DNA from: Streptomyces sp. ERV7
GTDB taxonomy: Bacteria > Actinomycetota > Actinomycetes > Streptomycetales > Streptomycetaceae
DNA: 64,000 bases
Direction: 5' to 3'
NCBI RefSeq assembly: GCF_001653515.1
Contig: NZ_LYOY01000040.1
Location: 1 to 64,000, forward strand
Positions 1 to 17,733 of the stretch are shown here, piece after piece (the stretch's first letter is position 1; each line of letters begins with the position of its first letter). Below the pieces are notes generated by a model. The model did not search any database and had not been told where the DNA came from. It was given only the letters and a program-made list of their open reading frames with translations. The translations under genes and the position numbers were made by a program.

Positions 1-4
1 CCCC

Positions 5-1423
5 GTGGACGCCCTGCCCGCCTGGCTGTCCAGCATGGTGCGCGGTGTCGCCGAGGAGACCCAAACCCCCGCCGACCTCGCCGGATGCCTGGCCCTGGCC
101 GTCCTGGCCACCGCCGCCGGGGGACGCGTCAAGGTGTGCGTACGCGGCCACTGGCGCGAGCCCGTGAACATCTACACCGCCATCGCCCTGCCCCCCGGCA
201 ACCGCAAGTCGGCCGTCTTCGACCTGATGGTTCAGCCCCTACTCGATGCCGAGAAAGCCCTGATCGAACTGTCCGGGCCGGTGCGAGCAGAGGCAGAAAC
301 CCTGATGGCACTGGCCAAGTCCGCCGCCACCAAGGCCGCAGAGAAGGCCGCCGGGGCAGATGCCGGACTACGCGAGACGCTGACCGCCGAAGCCGTCCAG
401 CTCGCCCAGGACGCGGCGAAGATGCGGGTTCCCGCCGAACCGCAGCTTGTCGCGGACGATGTGACCCCGGAGAACGTCGGGACGCTCCTGGACGAGCAGG
501 GCGGGCGCATCTCGTGCCTGAGCGCCGAGGGCGAGCTGTTCGACATCATCGCCGGGCGCTACACCGGCAAGCCCAACATGGGCATGTTCCTCAAAGGCCA
601 CGCAGGCGACATGCTCCGCGTGAACCGGCAGGGCCGCAGCGCCCAGCACGTCGCCTCACCGGCTGTCACGATCGGTCTGGCCGTGCAGCCGGAAGTCCTG
701 GACGCGCTCAGCCGCATCGACGGAGCCGACGGACGCGGCCTCCTGGCCCGCTTCCTGTACTCCAAGCCCCTGTCCCTGGTCGGCTCCCGCAGCCTCACCC
801 CCGCCCTGCTGGACGAGCAGGTGGCCGCCACCTACGCCAAACACCTGGCAGGCCTCACGCTCGCTCTGGCGGACTGGACCGACCCCGCCCTCATCCAGCT
901 CACCCCGGAAGCCGACGCGGTCCTGCTGGCCTTCCAGAAGGTCACCGAATCGCGCCTGGGGCCGGACGGGAGCTTCGCACCGATCGTGAAATGGGCGTCC
1001 AAGCGGGACGGGGCCGTGGCCCGCATCGCCGGACTCCTCCACCTCGCCACCCACCCCGAAGACGGATGGCACAAGCCCATCGAAGCCCCGACGATGGCCG
1101 CCGCCACCGAGCTGGGCGACTACTTCACCGCGCACGCCCTGGACGTGTTCAGCGCCATAAGCGCAGGCCCCGCCCACGAAGCAGCCGTGACCGTCCTGGC
1201 CCAGCTCGTCTCCACCAGCCCCGCGCAGTTCACCAAGCGCGAGCTGTTCCGCACGCTGCGCCGGGCCGACTTCCCTGCCATCGGCGACCTGGACCCTGCT
1301 CTGGCCCTGCTCGAAGAACACGGCTGGGTCCGCCAACAGCCCCCGCCCCCGCGCACGGGACGCGGTGGGCGACCCCCGTCGCCCCGCTACGAAACTCACC
1401 CGCGTATCGCACGCGGCGCCTGA
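5..1423 (+). CDS. DUF3987-type replication protein of an integrated element (5' partial)
   Basis: The reading frame is open to the left edge, so the GTG at position 5 is probably internal and the protein longer. Visible are 472 residues. A P-loop-like PPGNRKSA lies near residues 63-70, followed by a coiled, Ala/Glu-rich stretch at about 80-140 and a C-terminal winged-helix-like part at about 395-445, ending in a Pro/Arg tail. This matches the DUF3987 domain often found behind primase/polymerase modules in plasmids and integrative elements; that family link is from memory. It is followed by a repeat cluster, an excisionase and an integrase, the rep-xis-int order of pSAM2-like AICEs. I infer a role in replicating the excised element. 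Initiator versus helicase/primase function cannot be decided here. Confidence 0.75.
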   Translation: MDALPAWLSSMVRGVAEETQTPADLAGCLALAVLATAAGGRVKVCVRGHWREPVNIYTAIALPPGNRKSAVFDLMVQPLLDAEKALIELSGPVRAEAETLMALAKSAATKAAEKAAGADAGLRETLTAEAVQLAQDAAKMRVPAEPQLVADDVTPENVGTLLDEQGGRISCLSAEGELFDIIAGRYTGKPNMGMFLKGHAGDMLRVNRQGRSAQHVASPAVTIGLAVQPEVLDALSRIDGADGRGLLARFLYSKPLSLVGSRSLTPALLDEQVAATYAKHLAGLTLALADWTDPALIQLTPEADAVLLAFQKVTESRLGPDGSFAPIVKWASKRDGAVARIAGLLHLATHPEDGWHKPIEAPTMAAATELGDYFTAHALDVFSAISAGPAHEAAVTVLAQLVSTSPAQFTKRELFRTLRRADFPAIGDLDPALALLEEHGWVRQQPPPPRTGRGGRPPSPRYETHPRIARGA

Positions 1424-1677
1424 CACAACCCCCAGACCGCTGACAGAACTGACACAACCCCCAGCGCAAGCCGCTGACCTGCACGGACAGGCCTGATCGC
1501 GGCTCTGACAGAACTGAGCTAAAACTCGACAGAACCCTCGGCCCTCCCGCCGGGCGTCTGTGACAGAACCTCCCCCAGAGAGGTTCTGTCAGGTTTTAAT
1601 TCGGTTCTGTCAAAGATCCAGAAACCGCCAAACCGCCAGGTCAGCGGCTTACAGGCTAGGTTCTGTCGGTTCTGTCA
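1421..1677. repeat. Iteron-like cluster of 9-bp TGACAGAAC repeats, both orientations
   Basis: Between the DUF3987 gene and the excisionase gene a 9-mer recurs. TGACAGAAC occurs at 1441, 1506 and 1561, with variants TGACACAAC at 1421 and 1450 and CGACAGAAC at 1527. The reverse complement GTTCTGTCA occurs at 1583, 1604 and 1669, with a one-base variant at 1660. The two TGACACAAC copies are each part of a longer unit ending CCCCCAG. The copies at 1561 and 1583 lie in a perfect 12-bp inverted repeat (1561-1572 and 1580-1591) with a 7-base spacer. The density and two orientations suggest protein-binding iterons, an origin or an autoregulatory operator for rep/xis, rather than a simple terminator. 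This is inference. Confidence 0.7.
1561..1591. promoter_or_regulatory. Perfect 12-bp inverted repeat inside the iteron cluster
   Basis: The arms TGACAGAACCTC and GAGGTTCTGTCA flank seven bases. Each arm contains one copy of the cluster's 9-mer, so it is the most symmetric site of the cluster. It could be an initiator or repressor site; as RNA it would also form a strong hairpin downstream of the DUF3987 gene. Confidence 0.5.
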
Positions 1678-1969: not shown

Positions 1970-3367
1970 ATGAGCCCCCGCAAGTCGAACTTGGAATCCA
2001 CTATCTACCTCGGTGATGACGGCTGGTGGCACGGACGCGTGACCATGGGCGTACTGGCCGATGGAAGCCCCGACCGCCGCCACCGCATGGCCCGCACAGA
2101 ACCCGCAGTGCGCCGTAAGGTGCGCGAGTTGGAGAAGCTCCGCGATGAGGGGCGCGCGACAAAGGCGGGCCGTAAGCCCACGGTCGGACAGTGGATGGAG
2201 ACCTACCTCACGGGCATCGCCAGTCTGAAGCTCAAGCCCCGGTCCCTGGACGACTACTGGTCCAAGACCCGCAACGACATCGTTCCCGGCGTCGGGAAGC
2301 ACCGCATCGACAAGCTCGCCCCGGAGCACCTTGAGCAGATGTACCGAGCCATGCTCGACGCTGGCCACGCACCATCCCACGTGGTCAAGGTGCACCGCAT
2401 CCTGTCCCGGGCCCTAAAGATTGCCCACCGCCGCCGGATGGTCGGTGAGAACGTCGCGATGCTGGTCGACCCACCCAGCATCGATGAGACCGAGACGAAC
2501 CCGTTCACCCAGGAAGAGGCGAAGGCATTCCTGGAAGCGGCGGCCAAGCGGCCCACGTTCATGCGGTGGGTCGTCGGCGTCGGCATGGGATTCCGCCAGG
2601 GCGAGACCTTGGGGCTGCGGTGGCCGTACGTCGACTTGGCCGCCGAACTGTTCCATCCCCGCTGGCAGTTGCAGCGGCTCACGTGGCGGCACGGCTGCGG
2701 CGACGCGCACGCGTGCGGGGCACGCCTGCATCGCTTCGAGCCCTGCCCGCCCAACTGCGCCACGCACAAGGGTTACAAGCGGGGCTGTCCGAAGCCGTGC
2801 ACTTCGACCTGCGTCAAGCATGCAAGCACCTGCCCGGAGCGCAAGGGCGGCGGTCTGGCCTTCACTCGTCCCAAGACGAAGAAGAGCACGAATCCCGTGC
2901 CGATCCCGCCCGCTTTCATTCCGTACCTGCTCGCGCACAAGGCTCAGCAGGACGAACTCCGCAAGGCGGCCGGAGAACTTTGGCAGGAGCACCAAGCCGT
3001 TTTCTCTCGACCCGACGGGCGTCCCATCGACCCCCGCGACGACTGGGAGGAGTTCAAGGAGCTGCTGGCAGAAGCGGGAATCAGCGACCGCCGCCTCTAC
3101 GACGGAAGTCGCCACACGGCAGGCACGATCCTCAATGAGCTGGGCGTGGACATGCCCACGATCATGGAAATCCTTCGGCACACCCAGATCAGCCAGACGC
3201 GCCGCTACGTCAAGGGCCGCTCACACCTCTCGAAGGACGCCATGCGTCGCATGGGAGACGCGTTTCTGCCCGCGCCGGAAGCGGCGCCCGAGCCCCCGAG
3301 TGAGACTAGAACTGAGACTGGGGACCGCCGCGCCGCCCGTGCGCGGCGCCGCCGCCGCATCCAATAA
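1970..3367 (+). CDS. int: Tyrosine site-specific integrase
   Basis: A 465-residue integrase that would catalyse integration and excision at the neighbouring tRNA gene. I chose ATG 1970 because GGAGA lies 6 bases upstream; a TTG at 1958 is in frame. An N-terminal arm-binding region (about 10-70) and a SAM-like core-binding domain (70-165) precede the catalytic domain. Catalytic residues visible are Arg209 (GFRQGETLGLRW), a Lys near 304 (PKTKKST), Arg381 (in DGSRHTAGT, where the usual first His is Asp), His404 (LRHTQ) and Tyr413. An unusual insertion at about 243-288 holds eight cysteines and may bind zinc; similar inserts occur in other actinomycete integrases. The basic C-terminus ends 48 bp from the tRNA 3' end, as expected for an att-proximal int. 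Confidence 0.93.
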   Translation: MSPRKSNLESTIYLGDDGWWHGRVTMGVLADGSPDRRHRMARTEPAVRRKVRELEKLRDEGRATKAGRKPTVGQWMETYLTGIASLKLKPRSLDDYWSKTRNDIVPGVGKHRIDKLAPEHLEQMYRAMLDAGHAPSHVVKVHRILSRALKIAHRRRMVGENVAMLVDPPSIDETETNPFTQEEAKAFLEAAAKRPTFMRWVVGVGMGFRQGETLGLRWPYVDLAAELFHPRWQLQRLTWRHGCGDAHACGARLHRFEPCPPNCATHKGYKRGCPKPCTSTCVKHASTCPERKGGGLAFTRPKTKKSTNPVPIPPAFIPYLLAHKAQQDELRKAAGELWQEHQAVFSRPDGRPIDPRDDWEEFKELLAEAGISDRRLYDGSRHTAGTILNELGVDMPTIMEILRHTQISQTRRYVKGRSHLSKDAMRRMGDAFLPAPEAAPEPPSETRTETGDRRAARARRRRRIQ

Positions 3368-3414
3368 AAGCAAAAGCCCCAGGTCACGGCGAGTGAGTCC
3401 TGAGGCTTCTACAG

Positions 3415-3488
3415 AGCCGCCTTCGGGATTCGAACCCGAGACCTACGCATTACGAGTGCGTTGCTCTGGCCAACTGAGCTAAGGCGGC
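3415..3488 (-). tRNA. tRNA-Thr (anticodon CGU), integration target
   Basis: The minus strand folds as a cloverleaf: acceptor arms GCCGCCT and AGGCGGC, D-arm TAGCTCAG, anticodon stem ACGCA/TGCGT with loop CTCGTAA (anticodon CGT in DNA), and T-loop GGTTCGAATCC. The discriminator is T and no CCA is encoded. The 3' end faces the integrase, so the 3' half of the tRNA is the probable att core: the element at the left inserted here and left the gene intact. The partner att site would be beyond the left edge. Confidence 0.93.
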
Positions 3489-3584: not shown

Positions 3585-5129
3585 TCAGGTGCACTTCTTG
3601 TCGGCCGGCGGGGCCGTCCCCTCCAGGAGGTACGTGTTGATCGCGGTGTCGATGCAGTCGCTGCCCCGGCCGTACGCCGTGTGGCCGTCGCCGTCGTACG
3701 TGAGGAGCCTGCCGGAGGCCAGCTGGGAGGCGAGGGACTTGGCCCACTTGTAGGGGGTGGCCGGGTCACGGGTGGTGCCGACCACGACGATCGGGACGGC
3801 GCCCTTCGCCTCGATGCGGTGCGCGGCCCCGGTGGCCTTGACCGGCCAGTACGCACAGTTCAGGATCGCCCAGGCGAAGCCCTCGCCGAAGACCGGCGAG
3901 GCCTTCTCGAAGGACGGGAGCGCGGCGGCGACCGCGTCGGGGCCGGAGAAGGCGGCGGGCAGGTCGAGGCAGTTCACGGCCGCGTTGGCGTACATGAGGT
4001 TGGCGTACTTCCCCTCCGCGTCGCGCTCGTAGTACGAGTCCGCGAGGGTCAGCAGGCCACCGCCGTCGCCCTGCATCGCGCGCGTGAGGCCGGTGCGCAG
4101 CTCGGGCCAGGTCGTCTCGTCGTACATCGCGGCGATCACGCCGGTCGTGGCGAGCGCCTCGCCGAGCTTGCGGGACTCGCCGGTCGCGACCGGCTTCGCG
4201 TCGAGGTCCGCGAAGAACGCCTTCAGGCGCGTCGACGCGTCCGCCACCGATGTCGTGCCCAGCGGGCAGTCCTTGCGCCGGATGCAGTCCGCCGCGAACG
4301 ACTGGAACGCCGTCTCGAAGCCCGCCGTCTGGTCGCGGTTCATCTCCAGGGCCGGCAGCGACGGGTCCATCGCGCCGTCGAGGACCAGGCGCCCGGTGCG
4401 CTCCGGGAACAGCTCGGCGTAGGTCGCGCCCAGGAACGTGCCGTAGGAGGCGCCCACGTAGTACAGCTTCTCGTCGCCGAGCAGCTGCCGCAGGATGTCC
4501 ATGTCACGGGCCGCCTCGACCGTGGACACATGCGGCAGCACCTTGCCCGAGTGCCTCTCGCAGCCCCGCGCGAAGTTCTTGAACGAGGACTCGAGCACCG
4601 CCTTCTCCCCGGCGTCGTCCGGGGTCTGGTCGACCTGGGTGTACGCGTCCATCTCCTGGCTCGTCAGGCATTCGACGGGCTCGCTGCGCGCCACCCCGCG
4701 CGGGTCGACGGCCACCATGTCGTACCGGGCCCGCACCGGGGCGGGGTAGCCGAGGCCCGCGTACTGCTGGAGGTAGCCGACGGCCGTGCCGCCCGGGCCG
4801 CCCGGATTGACCAGGAGCGACCCGATCCGCTTGCCCGGCCCGGTGGCCTTCTTGCGGGCGACCGCGAGGTTGATGGAGGTGCCCGTCGGCTTGGCGTAGT
4901 CGAGCGGCGCCTTCATCGTGGAGCACTCGAAGCCCGGTACGCCGCACGCCCGCCAGCTGAGCTTCTGCTGGTAGTACGGACGCAGGGCGGCCGATGTCTG
5001 GGCGCCCGCGGCCGAGGCGGTGGACGCCGTCGCGGTGGTGGACGAGCTGCCCGACGAGCATCCGGAGGCGAGCAGCCCGGCGGTCGCGATGACGAGGGCG
5101 GAGGAACGGAGCAGGCGCCTGGAGTCCAT
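3585..5129 (-). CDS. Secreted TAP-type alpha/beta hydrolase (tripeptidyl aminopeptidase family) lipoprotein
   Basis: A 514-residue exported hydrolase. ATG 5129 gives a lipoprotein signal peptide with lipobox LASGC (Cys24); an upstream in-frame ATG would add an implausible N-terminus. The fold matches Streptomyces tripeptidyl aminopeptidases (SlpD/SlpE/Tap): oxyanion region NPGGPGG, nucleophile Ser228 in GASYG, Asp455 in TRDPATP, His483 in DGDGHTAYG, and the C-terminal TAP domain ending with paired cysteines. It probably releases N-terminal tripeptides from extracellular peptides while anchored in the membrane. It lies downstream of holB on the same strand with a 140-bp gap, so it may have its own promoter. 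Exact peptide specificity is unknown. Confidence 0.88.
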   Translation of the reverse strand: MDSRRLLRSSALVIATAGLLASGCSSGSSSTTATASTASAAGAQTSAALRPYYQQKLSWRACGVPGFECSTMKAPLDYAKPTGTSINLAVARKKATGPGKRIGSLLVNPGGPGGTAVGYLQQYAGLGYPAPVRARYDMVAVDPRGVARSEPVECLTSQEMDAYTQVDQTPDDAGEKAVLESSFKNFARGCERHSGKVLPHVSTVEAARDMDILRQLLGDEKLYYVGASYGTFLGATYAELFPERTGRLVLDGAMDPSLPALEMNRDQTAGFETAFQSFAADCIRRKDCPLGTTSVADASTRLKAFFADLDAKPVATGESRKLGEALATTGVIAAMYDETTWPELRTGLTRAMQGDGGGLLTLADSYYERDAEGKYANLMYANAAVNCLDLPAAFSGPDAVAAALPSFEKASPVFGEGFAWAILNCAYWPVKATGAAHRIEAKGAVPIVVVGTTRDPATPYKWAKSLASQLASGRLLTYDGDGHTAYGRGSDCIDTAINTYLLEGTAPPADKKCT

Positions 5130-17379: not shown

Positions 17380-17733
17380 TCAGTCAGTGGCGTTGACGGC
17401 TTCGTCGACCGAGCCATGGATCGGGAACACCTTGGTGAGCCCGGTGATCCGGAAGATCTTCAGAATGCGCTCCTGGTTGCAGACGAGCCGCAGGGAGCCC
17501 TCATGGGCACGGACACGCTTGAGTCCGCCCACGAGCACGCCGAGGCCGGTGGAGTCGAGGAAGTCCACGCCCTCCATGTCGACAACCAGGTGGTAGCTGC
17601 CGTCGTTCACCAACTCGACCAACTGCTCGCGCAGCTTGGGCGCGGTATACACATCAATCTCGCCACCGACCTCGACGACCGTACGGTCGCCACCAGGGCC
17701 GGACACATTGCGAGTCGACAGGGACAGGTCCAC
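17380..17733 (-). CDS. bldG: Anti-sigma factor antagonist BldG
   Basis: A 117-residue STAS-domain protein that, when unphosphorylated, sequesters its anti-sigma partner and is required for aerial growth and antibiotic production. The start is GTG 17733, with GGAGGA 5-6 bases upstream. The phosphorylation motif [13 protein letters not shown] is intact; the Ser is residue 61 here, equivalent to Ser57 in S. coelicolor as I recall, because four residues (about 11-15, SGPGG region) are extra near the N-terminus. The rest of the family sequence appears fully conserved. It is divergent from the helicase gene across 79 bp. Confidence 0.95.

Follow-up and report, generated by a model that had tools for sequence, protein, structure and literature searches.

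In the Streptomyces plasmid pWTY27, RepA footprints a long inverted repeat of iterons next to repA; this repeat is needed for replication, which proceeds bidirectionally (PMC3583192). Initiators of the SaPI type recognize, by means of their C-terminal domain, repeats located just 3′ of their own gene (PMC7581432; PMC6092414), and the origin layout reported in 2018 was described as occurring in no other known bacterial replicon (PMC6092414). Among the AICEs, the elements with RepAM have been predicted to replicate by the rolling-circle mode (PMC3218068, section 7). DUF3987 proteins, found with archaeo-eukaryotic primases, have been predicted to be helicases of mobile elements, and a C-terminal winged helix has been predicted to serve origin recognition in related proteins (PMC5862659). 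Among the papers listed by searches of open-licence full texts, none deals with an origin of such elements that is linked to DUF3987.

The window, i.e., the 64,000 nt analyzed, is the start of contig C40 (G000:C40:1–64000) of a 7.1-Mb genome in 116 contigs. It harbors the AICE features of a tyrosine integrase beside a tRNA gene, an xis-type gene, and a rep gene, and the gene calls of the sequence-only reading were upheld for DUF3987 (E 2e-97), the HTH_17/excisionase-type gene, the phage integrase, and tRNA-Thr. The window starts within rep, and the upstream part of the cut gene was not found in the assembly. In the relative L039, the same tRNA follows int as in the window, and the match to the FtsK/SpoIIIE-type family PF01580 is weak (24.4 bits vs. 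a cut-off of 24). No 18-mer repeat of the int–tRNA region was found within L039 in a search for attL/attR, a locus that may stop short of the other end of the element. L039 also carries a gene with a PycTM (Pycsar effector) domain at 2661–3107, ∼7 kb upstream of rep, possibly defence cargo. The region at 1421–1677 very probably serves as the origin of replication for an integrated conjugative-type element of Streptomyces. This candidate, derived from sequence comparison, is well supported: the array accompanies the DUF3987 gene, the class of its repeats changes together with the winged helix of the encoded protein, and a circular plasmid has the same module.

Ten copies of TGACAGAAC with 0–1 mismatch were found within the 257 bp of 1421–1677, six forward followed by four reverse, six of them exact (Table 1). 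The earlier claims of at least ten copies in two orientations and of a perfect 12-bp inverted repeat were thereby confirmed. At 0–1 mismatch, shuffling predicts 6.3 matches in the whole window; 13 are present, of which 10 lie inside the cluster. Six of the 15 exact copies in the genome are found here, so the 9-mer is not equally dense elsewhere. Multiple short repeats are hence clustered beside a rep gene as in iteron-type origins, the first of them sharing TGA with the DUF3987 stop codon (1421–1423). The A+T content at 1580–1619 is 57% vs. 28% for the window, and no 20-nt stretch with at least 15 A/T occurs anywhere in the array; the center (1537–1560) is G+C-rich, and the A/T-rich spacers sit inside the arms. 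No DnaA box (consensus TTGTCCACA, 0–1 mismatch) was found near the array, the nearest being at 17577. A DnaA box beside the iterons is frequent, not universal, in plasmid origins.

The array forms one long imperfect palindrome with its copies in mirror order about position 1559. The repeats of the sequence-only reading are real, and its iteron cluster missed this mirror-ordered palindrome; the direct-repeat label of iteron is too simple for a feature that is a mirror-symmetric double array. The stretch 1437–1481 pairs with 1637–1681 (45 nt, 80%) and 1503–1536 with 1582–1615 (34 nt, 82%), both about the same center, which ranks first among 127,512 window centers with 71 complementary positions out of 122, against a mean of 36.1 (sd 6.3) and 64 for the runner-up. 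Each arm comprises a tandem repeat pair with a 9-bp step, a box, and two repeats 21 bp apart, the spacer between the inner repeats being complementary to its own mirror spacer. Folding of 1421–1690 as single-stranded DNA gave z = −9.5, none of 200 shuffles being as low, and cruciform extrusion of the long palindrome is possible.

Table 1. Features of the predicted origin and its neighboring genes (positions in the window)
Feature	Position	Strand	Remark
DUF3987 gene (PF13148), predicted initiator helicase	2–1423	+	Pfam E 2.3e-97; 5′ end cut by contig start
C-terminal winged helix, predicted repeat reader, last 85 codons	1166–1420	+	Model of L087, class linkage
Predicted replication origin, mirror-symmetric double array of 9-bp repeat	1421–1677	.	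Center 1559
Repeat TGACACAAC, 1 mismatch	1421–1429	+	Overlaps rep stop codon
Repeat, exact	1441–1449	+	Tandem pair, first member
Repeat TGACACAAC, 1 mismatch	1450–1458	+	Tandem pair, second member; 9-bp step
Left box TGACCTGC	1475–1482	+	
Repeat, exact	1506–1514	+	
Left inner spacer	1515–1526	.	Mirror partner 1592–1603
Repeat CGACAGAAC, 1 mismatch	1527–1535	+	
Repeat, exact	1561–1569	+	Central position; absent from some relatives
Perfect 12-bp inverted repeat (1561–1572/1580–1591), then GGTTTTAATT	1561–1591	+	Terminator-like
Repeat, exact	1583–1591	−	
Right inner A/T-rich spacer GGTTTTAATTCG	1592–1603	.	
Repeat, exact	1604–1612	−	
Right box (+ strand, CCAGGTCA; − strand, TGACCTGG), differing at one base	1636–1643	−	Mirrors left box about 1559
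Repeat CGACAGAAC, 1 mismatch	1660–1668	−	Tandem pair with 1669–1677
Repeat, exact	1669–1677	−	
Small HTH_17/excisionase-type gene, 61 codons	1724–1909	+	Pfam, TIGR01764; outside origin
Tyrosine integrase	1970–3367	+	Pfam; outside origin
tRNA-Thr (CGT), presumed integration target	3414–3488	−	

A search with a 270-bp stretch against 392 genomes of the genus matched 32 of them. Thirty loci (L009–L038) were compared, L033–L038 being left out as short matches without a DUF3987 gene or repeats; in all 24 loci with a DUF3987 gene the array lies beside it, the repeats beginning at or beside the stop codon. A further set, taken from a scan of named genomes, consisted of the best 80 of 289 related loci, hence biased to close ones, of which 79 were usable (L120 was excluded owing to contig ends). 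In this set, a palindrome with symmetry z ≥ 5 was found behind the DUF3987 gene in 62 of the 79 loci, weak-symmetry loci such as L118 being scored as misses, and the shuffle maxima for those 62 (20 shuffles per locus) did not exceed 4.7. A 34-bp inner inverted repeat with at least 27 matches was present in 52/82 loci, and 41 shuffles reached at most 21. The repeat classes, assigned by exact k-mer counts with variants lumped, vary by lineage: TGACAGAAC and TGACAGAAA; CCGCAGAAA with CCGCACAAA/CCGCAAAAT; and CACAGAAA. Within the TGACAGAAC class, all 31 loci have at least two copies per orientation, and in 29 of them every forward copy lies to the left of every reverse copy.

The box, TGACC(T/A)GC, was found in the left arm of 72, the right arm of 64, and both arms of 62 of the 79 loci from the best 80 of 289, and relatives carry GCAGGTCA at the right-box position. 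As the box is itself a frequent 8-mer (17 occurrences in the window vs. 5 expected; 0.23 per kb in the flanks), its meaning rests on its mirrored position. In the alignment of 31 first-class arrays, 76% of the cells are mirror-paired vs. 33–39% when slid, and double changes exceed those of any of 500 shuffles (score 0.152 vs. 0.097 for shuffles and at most 0.099 when slid). The spacers alone are 49% complementary vs. 16–35% when slid (0.492 within vs. 0.442 across sequences). This covariation is real, modest, and inflated by relatedness, and gene conversion between the arms or shared ancestry would look alike in such counts.

A conserved small ORF of 108–135 aa is located between Prim-Pol and rep. 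It was considered as the reader of the box and rejected: one or more boxes are present in 55 of the 56 loci that carry the ORF, but 17 loci with both boxes have no detected ORF (L009, L086, and L120 left out of the comparison). An unannotated small ORF is also present between Prim-Pol and DUF3631 in L168 (NZ_CP108827.1; 9980–10330), with 31–36% identity to the ORFs of L039, L059, and L167. The family shows a CxCG...H...C pattern, and no Pfam match was obtained in the two copies scanned.

The AlphaFold model of L087, a 95%-identical relative (mean pLDDT 76; residues 215–275 and 283–291 unreliable), ends in a winged helix, with C-terminal elements H432–447, E451–453, H454–460, H469–481, E485–487, and E504–507; a second, poor model (A4, pLDDT 50) was left out. 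The Foldseek matches listed for the C-terminal domain are winged-helix regulators with a probability of ∼1 but E values of 0.43 or worse, and no meaningful match to a solved structure came from a profile search (best E 0.09). With VIA-align, all 50 matches listed were MCM, CMG, OCCM, or replisome entries, a type of Z score that helical models can reach by arrangement alone; the best match listed was 6mii_B (Z 13.5, rmsd 3.8, 234 aligned), over a core that is partly unreliable. Foldseek on the same model gave no match with E ≤ 0.001. The DUF3987 protein has a P-loop-like PPGNRKS, reminiscent of MCM, and its modeled likeness to MCM is a lead.

The relation between the winged helix and the array was evaluated on a helicase tree of 82 proteins minus their last 85 residues. 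The repeat class switches along this tree, class C showing five changes, at least four of which are forced by well-supported branches. In all 78 different-class pairs with helicase cores at least 85% identical, the winged helices are only 49–61% identical, and in the 349 same-class pairs with helicases at least 80% identical they are 66–100% identical; such pairs are not independent, some loci being one genome present twice via two collections (L064/L130 have identical values), and the number of changes is taken from the tree. At the DNA level, of the 64 pairs whose helicase DNA is at least 85% identical, 12 listed ones retain 85–92% identity in the helicase and 88–93% in int, with 64–70% in the winged helix and 68–73% in the array. 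Between L152 and L154, identity is 84–95% up to about −300 relative to the stop codon, 64–79% from −200 to +400, and 85–100% beyond, the drop spanning about −250 to +400. Since the winged helix and the array adjoin, one crossover could move both along with everything downstream; as the int flank stays alike while the winged helix and the array differ, they appear to be exchanged as a ∼650-bp cassette. This exchange is the main reason for assigning the array as a target to the DUF3987 protein, rather than to the integrase or the HTH protein. Judged from these sequence comparisons, the DNA-binding domain of the neighboring DUF3987 protein most likely recognizes the array, and the linkage of class and winged helix suggests repeats specific for their cognate initiator.

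The same comparison bears on the possibility that the array is a set of operator sites, without origin function, for a regulator (Rep or the small HTH protein) of xis–int expression. In its favor, the small HTH gene starts 47 bp downstream of the array, and the order rep–array–int is conserved, with a same-strand integrase following in 76/77 loci. The position between rep and int is therefore conserved, although the int sequence itself varies widely, from 95% identity to that of the window down to ∼30% or no match. An operator is nevertheless very unlikely: ten mirror-ordered sites over 257 bp exceed operator needs, the array switches with the rep winged helix while the int region stays at 88–93%, a homologue of xis was found in only 39/77 loci with two xis queries, and no promoter of the sigma-70 type, the type covered, was found at 1200–2000. 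Of the earlier proposal of an origin or a control switch between replication and excision, the origin is thus well supported by the linkage of the array with rep and its winged helix, and the excision switch is unsupported.

It is highly improbable that the palindrome acts as RNA, i.e., as a transcription terminator or structured RNA ending the rep operon, although 1561–1591 together with GGTTTTAATT scores as an intrinsic terminator (hairpin region 1561–1600), the fold is strong, and changes on both sides occur in 15/50 pairs. The central repeat that forms the hairpin is missing in L102, L105, L107, L114, L117, and L118, where the palindrome persists, and the repeats recur as 9-bp sites at fixed steps and track a DNA-binding domain. 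Counts of mismatches in paired context (G-T 102 vs. A-C 255), which would reveal a strand preference, are confounded by base composition, the + strand being C/A-rich (CC 203, GG 31; AA 59, TT 25). A terminator may coexist inside the origin. A rolling-circle double-strand origin with a hairpin, as in RepSA elements such as pSAM2, is extremely improbable: hairpins mark such origins and RepAM has been predicted to act in this mode (PMC3218068), but the adjacent gene encodes a winged-helix DUF3987 protein and not an HUH nickase, and many repeats in two mirror half-arrays are the layout of an initiator-helicase origin. That the repeats are arm-type integrase/excisionase sites is scarcely credible, despite the closeness of xis and int and a tRNA-Thr target downstream, as the array remains beside rep where int has been exchanged, changes where int is retained, and lies ∼1.7 kb from the tRNA.

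The association of the predicted origin with the initiator gene was also found on plasmids. The circular 18.5-kb Streptomyces plasmid NZ_CP107792.1 is organized as Prim-Pol, small ORF, DUF3987 (75%), ten-copy array, HTH, and integrase, which agrees with autonomous replication by this module but does not prove it. Two 14-kb plasmids with related Prim-Pol (73% and 60%) carry a DUF3631 gene instead of DUF3987, with a two-orientation array of 12 and 13 copies of CCGCTACC overlapping and following the DUF3631 gene end. In the DUF3631 (RepAM-type) plasmids L167 (12429–12630) and L168 (11440–11655), 12–13 copies of CCGCTAC in both orientations were located at the rep 3′ end.

Within the window genome, 12 Prim-Pol places were viewed, of which four have an array or palindrome and eight do not. 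At L187, a further DUF3987 gene is accompanied by a palindrome and two boxes; L185 and L177 have Rep candidates without Pfam matches, with two-orientation arrays (8 and 9 copies, respectively) and box copies; and L182 has a single 7-copy array. L177, L182, L185, and L187 form a set of co-resident replicons with a distinct repeat in each, and their use of different repeats makes replication incompatibility testable. Two Prim-Pol genes of equal score lie 6 kb apart at G000:C29:627964 and 633997, probably a duplication. The repeat of L181 at 4695–4946 was considered as a CRISPR and rejected, as it consists of a 61-bp G+C-rich unit repeated five times in tandem, without CRISPR-type spacers.

The expectation that homologous rep–xis gaps carry the cluster holds for close relatives but fails for 11 of 16 DUF3987 loci outside the genus, which have no array nearby. 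Arrays of other repeats, including CGTTGACA and CGGTGACA, were found in four of the 16 (L075, L077, L078, and L079), and L082 is weak. The densest array found is that of L079, a genome of the same class, where CGGTGACA occurs 18 times, in both orientations, around the 3′ end of the DUF3987 gene and behind it. Beside the homologue on a Tsukamurella plasmid (41%), GGGACAGAAG is present in five copies that all share one orientation.

A mechanism for the predicted origin can be proposed as follows. After excision of the element, the DUF3987 helicase-type initiator would bind the 9-bp repeats via its C-terminal winged helix. The two mirror half-arrays, with ∼5 sites each (the outer tandem pair, the box, and two sites two helical turns apart), would by their geometry seat two oligomers face to face. 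These oligomers would open the A/T-rich inner spacers and lead to theta-type replication in both directions, with priming by the Prim-Pol protein that intact relatives encode upstream. A wider and tentative proposal, which we hold to be somewhat less than probable, is that the winged helix of an MCM-like initiator and the mirror origin form a natural ∼650-bp cassette swapped between otherwise alike elements, and that two facing MCM-like hexamers together with Prim-Pol start replication in the archaeal-eukaryotic manner. If so, swapping the cassette would change both the replication specificity and the incompatibility of an element in a single event. The natural pairs differing only in winged helix and array offer a ready swap system.

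Compared with the known systems, the locus resembles pWTY27 in its Prim-Pol (repB there), a Rep of similar size (522 aa in pWTY27), a non-coding stretch of ∼300 bp, short repeats in two orientations, and a long inverted repeat (PMC3583192). The order Prim-Pol–Rep–inverted repeat array of the pWTY27 type is present in the intact relatives L039 and L059, and the window is cut before Prim-Pol. The two differ in that the pWTY27 repeats are GTGGGAAC/TTCCCAC and its RepA is a hypothetical protein, likened here by order and layout; the available parts of the pWTY27 texts describe no box, no exchange of reader and array, and no family (PMC3583192). The pWTY27 repeat as a triple matched in 22 of the 392 genomes, the matches listed looking like tandem or coding repeats and providing no usable relative. 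The rep-ori of SaPI/PICI and the Cch2-origin of SCCmec share with the present locus an initiator helicase, two repeat sets directly 3′ of its gene, a primase partner, and an integrated element, but their helicases are DUF927 and Primase_Cterm/D5 and their hosts are others (PMC7581432; PMC6092414). In SaPI/PICI, as far as described in the available text, a central A/T-rich region lies between the two sets of repeats; the window array has no such single region between its repeat sets, but mirrored half-arrays with a variable center and A/T-rich spacers within the arms. A two-set repeat origin behind an initiator helicase would hence not be confined to phage-inducible islands.

Intact relatives also resemble the AICEs with Prim-Pol/RepPP or RepAM in having an integrase beside a tRNA, an xis-like gene, Prim-Pol, and Rep, with a putative FtsK-type transfer gene known from the weak PF01580 match; unlike the present analysis, the available text on these types names no origin (PMC3218068). 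For RepAM, the rolling-circle prediction contrasts with the two DUF3631 plasmids described here, in which similar arrays occupy the same place behind the initiator gene. The available text on DUF3987 with archaeo-eukaryotic primases gives no origin sequence (PMC5862659), to which the present analysis adds a candidate target and evidence of linkage. DUF3987, labeled as of unknown function, would thereby be placed at the center of origin recognition, and Streptomyces integrated elements for which the surveyed papers, as far as available, name no origin are provided with a concrete candidate origin sequence and a predicted reader domain. Such an origin is known in principle from pWTY27 and SaPI; what is new is the initiator family, the mirror layout with its shared box, and the exchange of reader and origin as a cassette.
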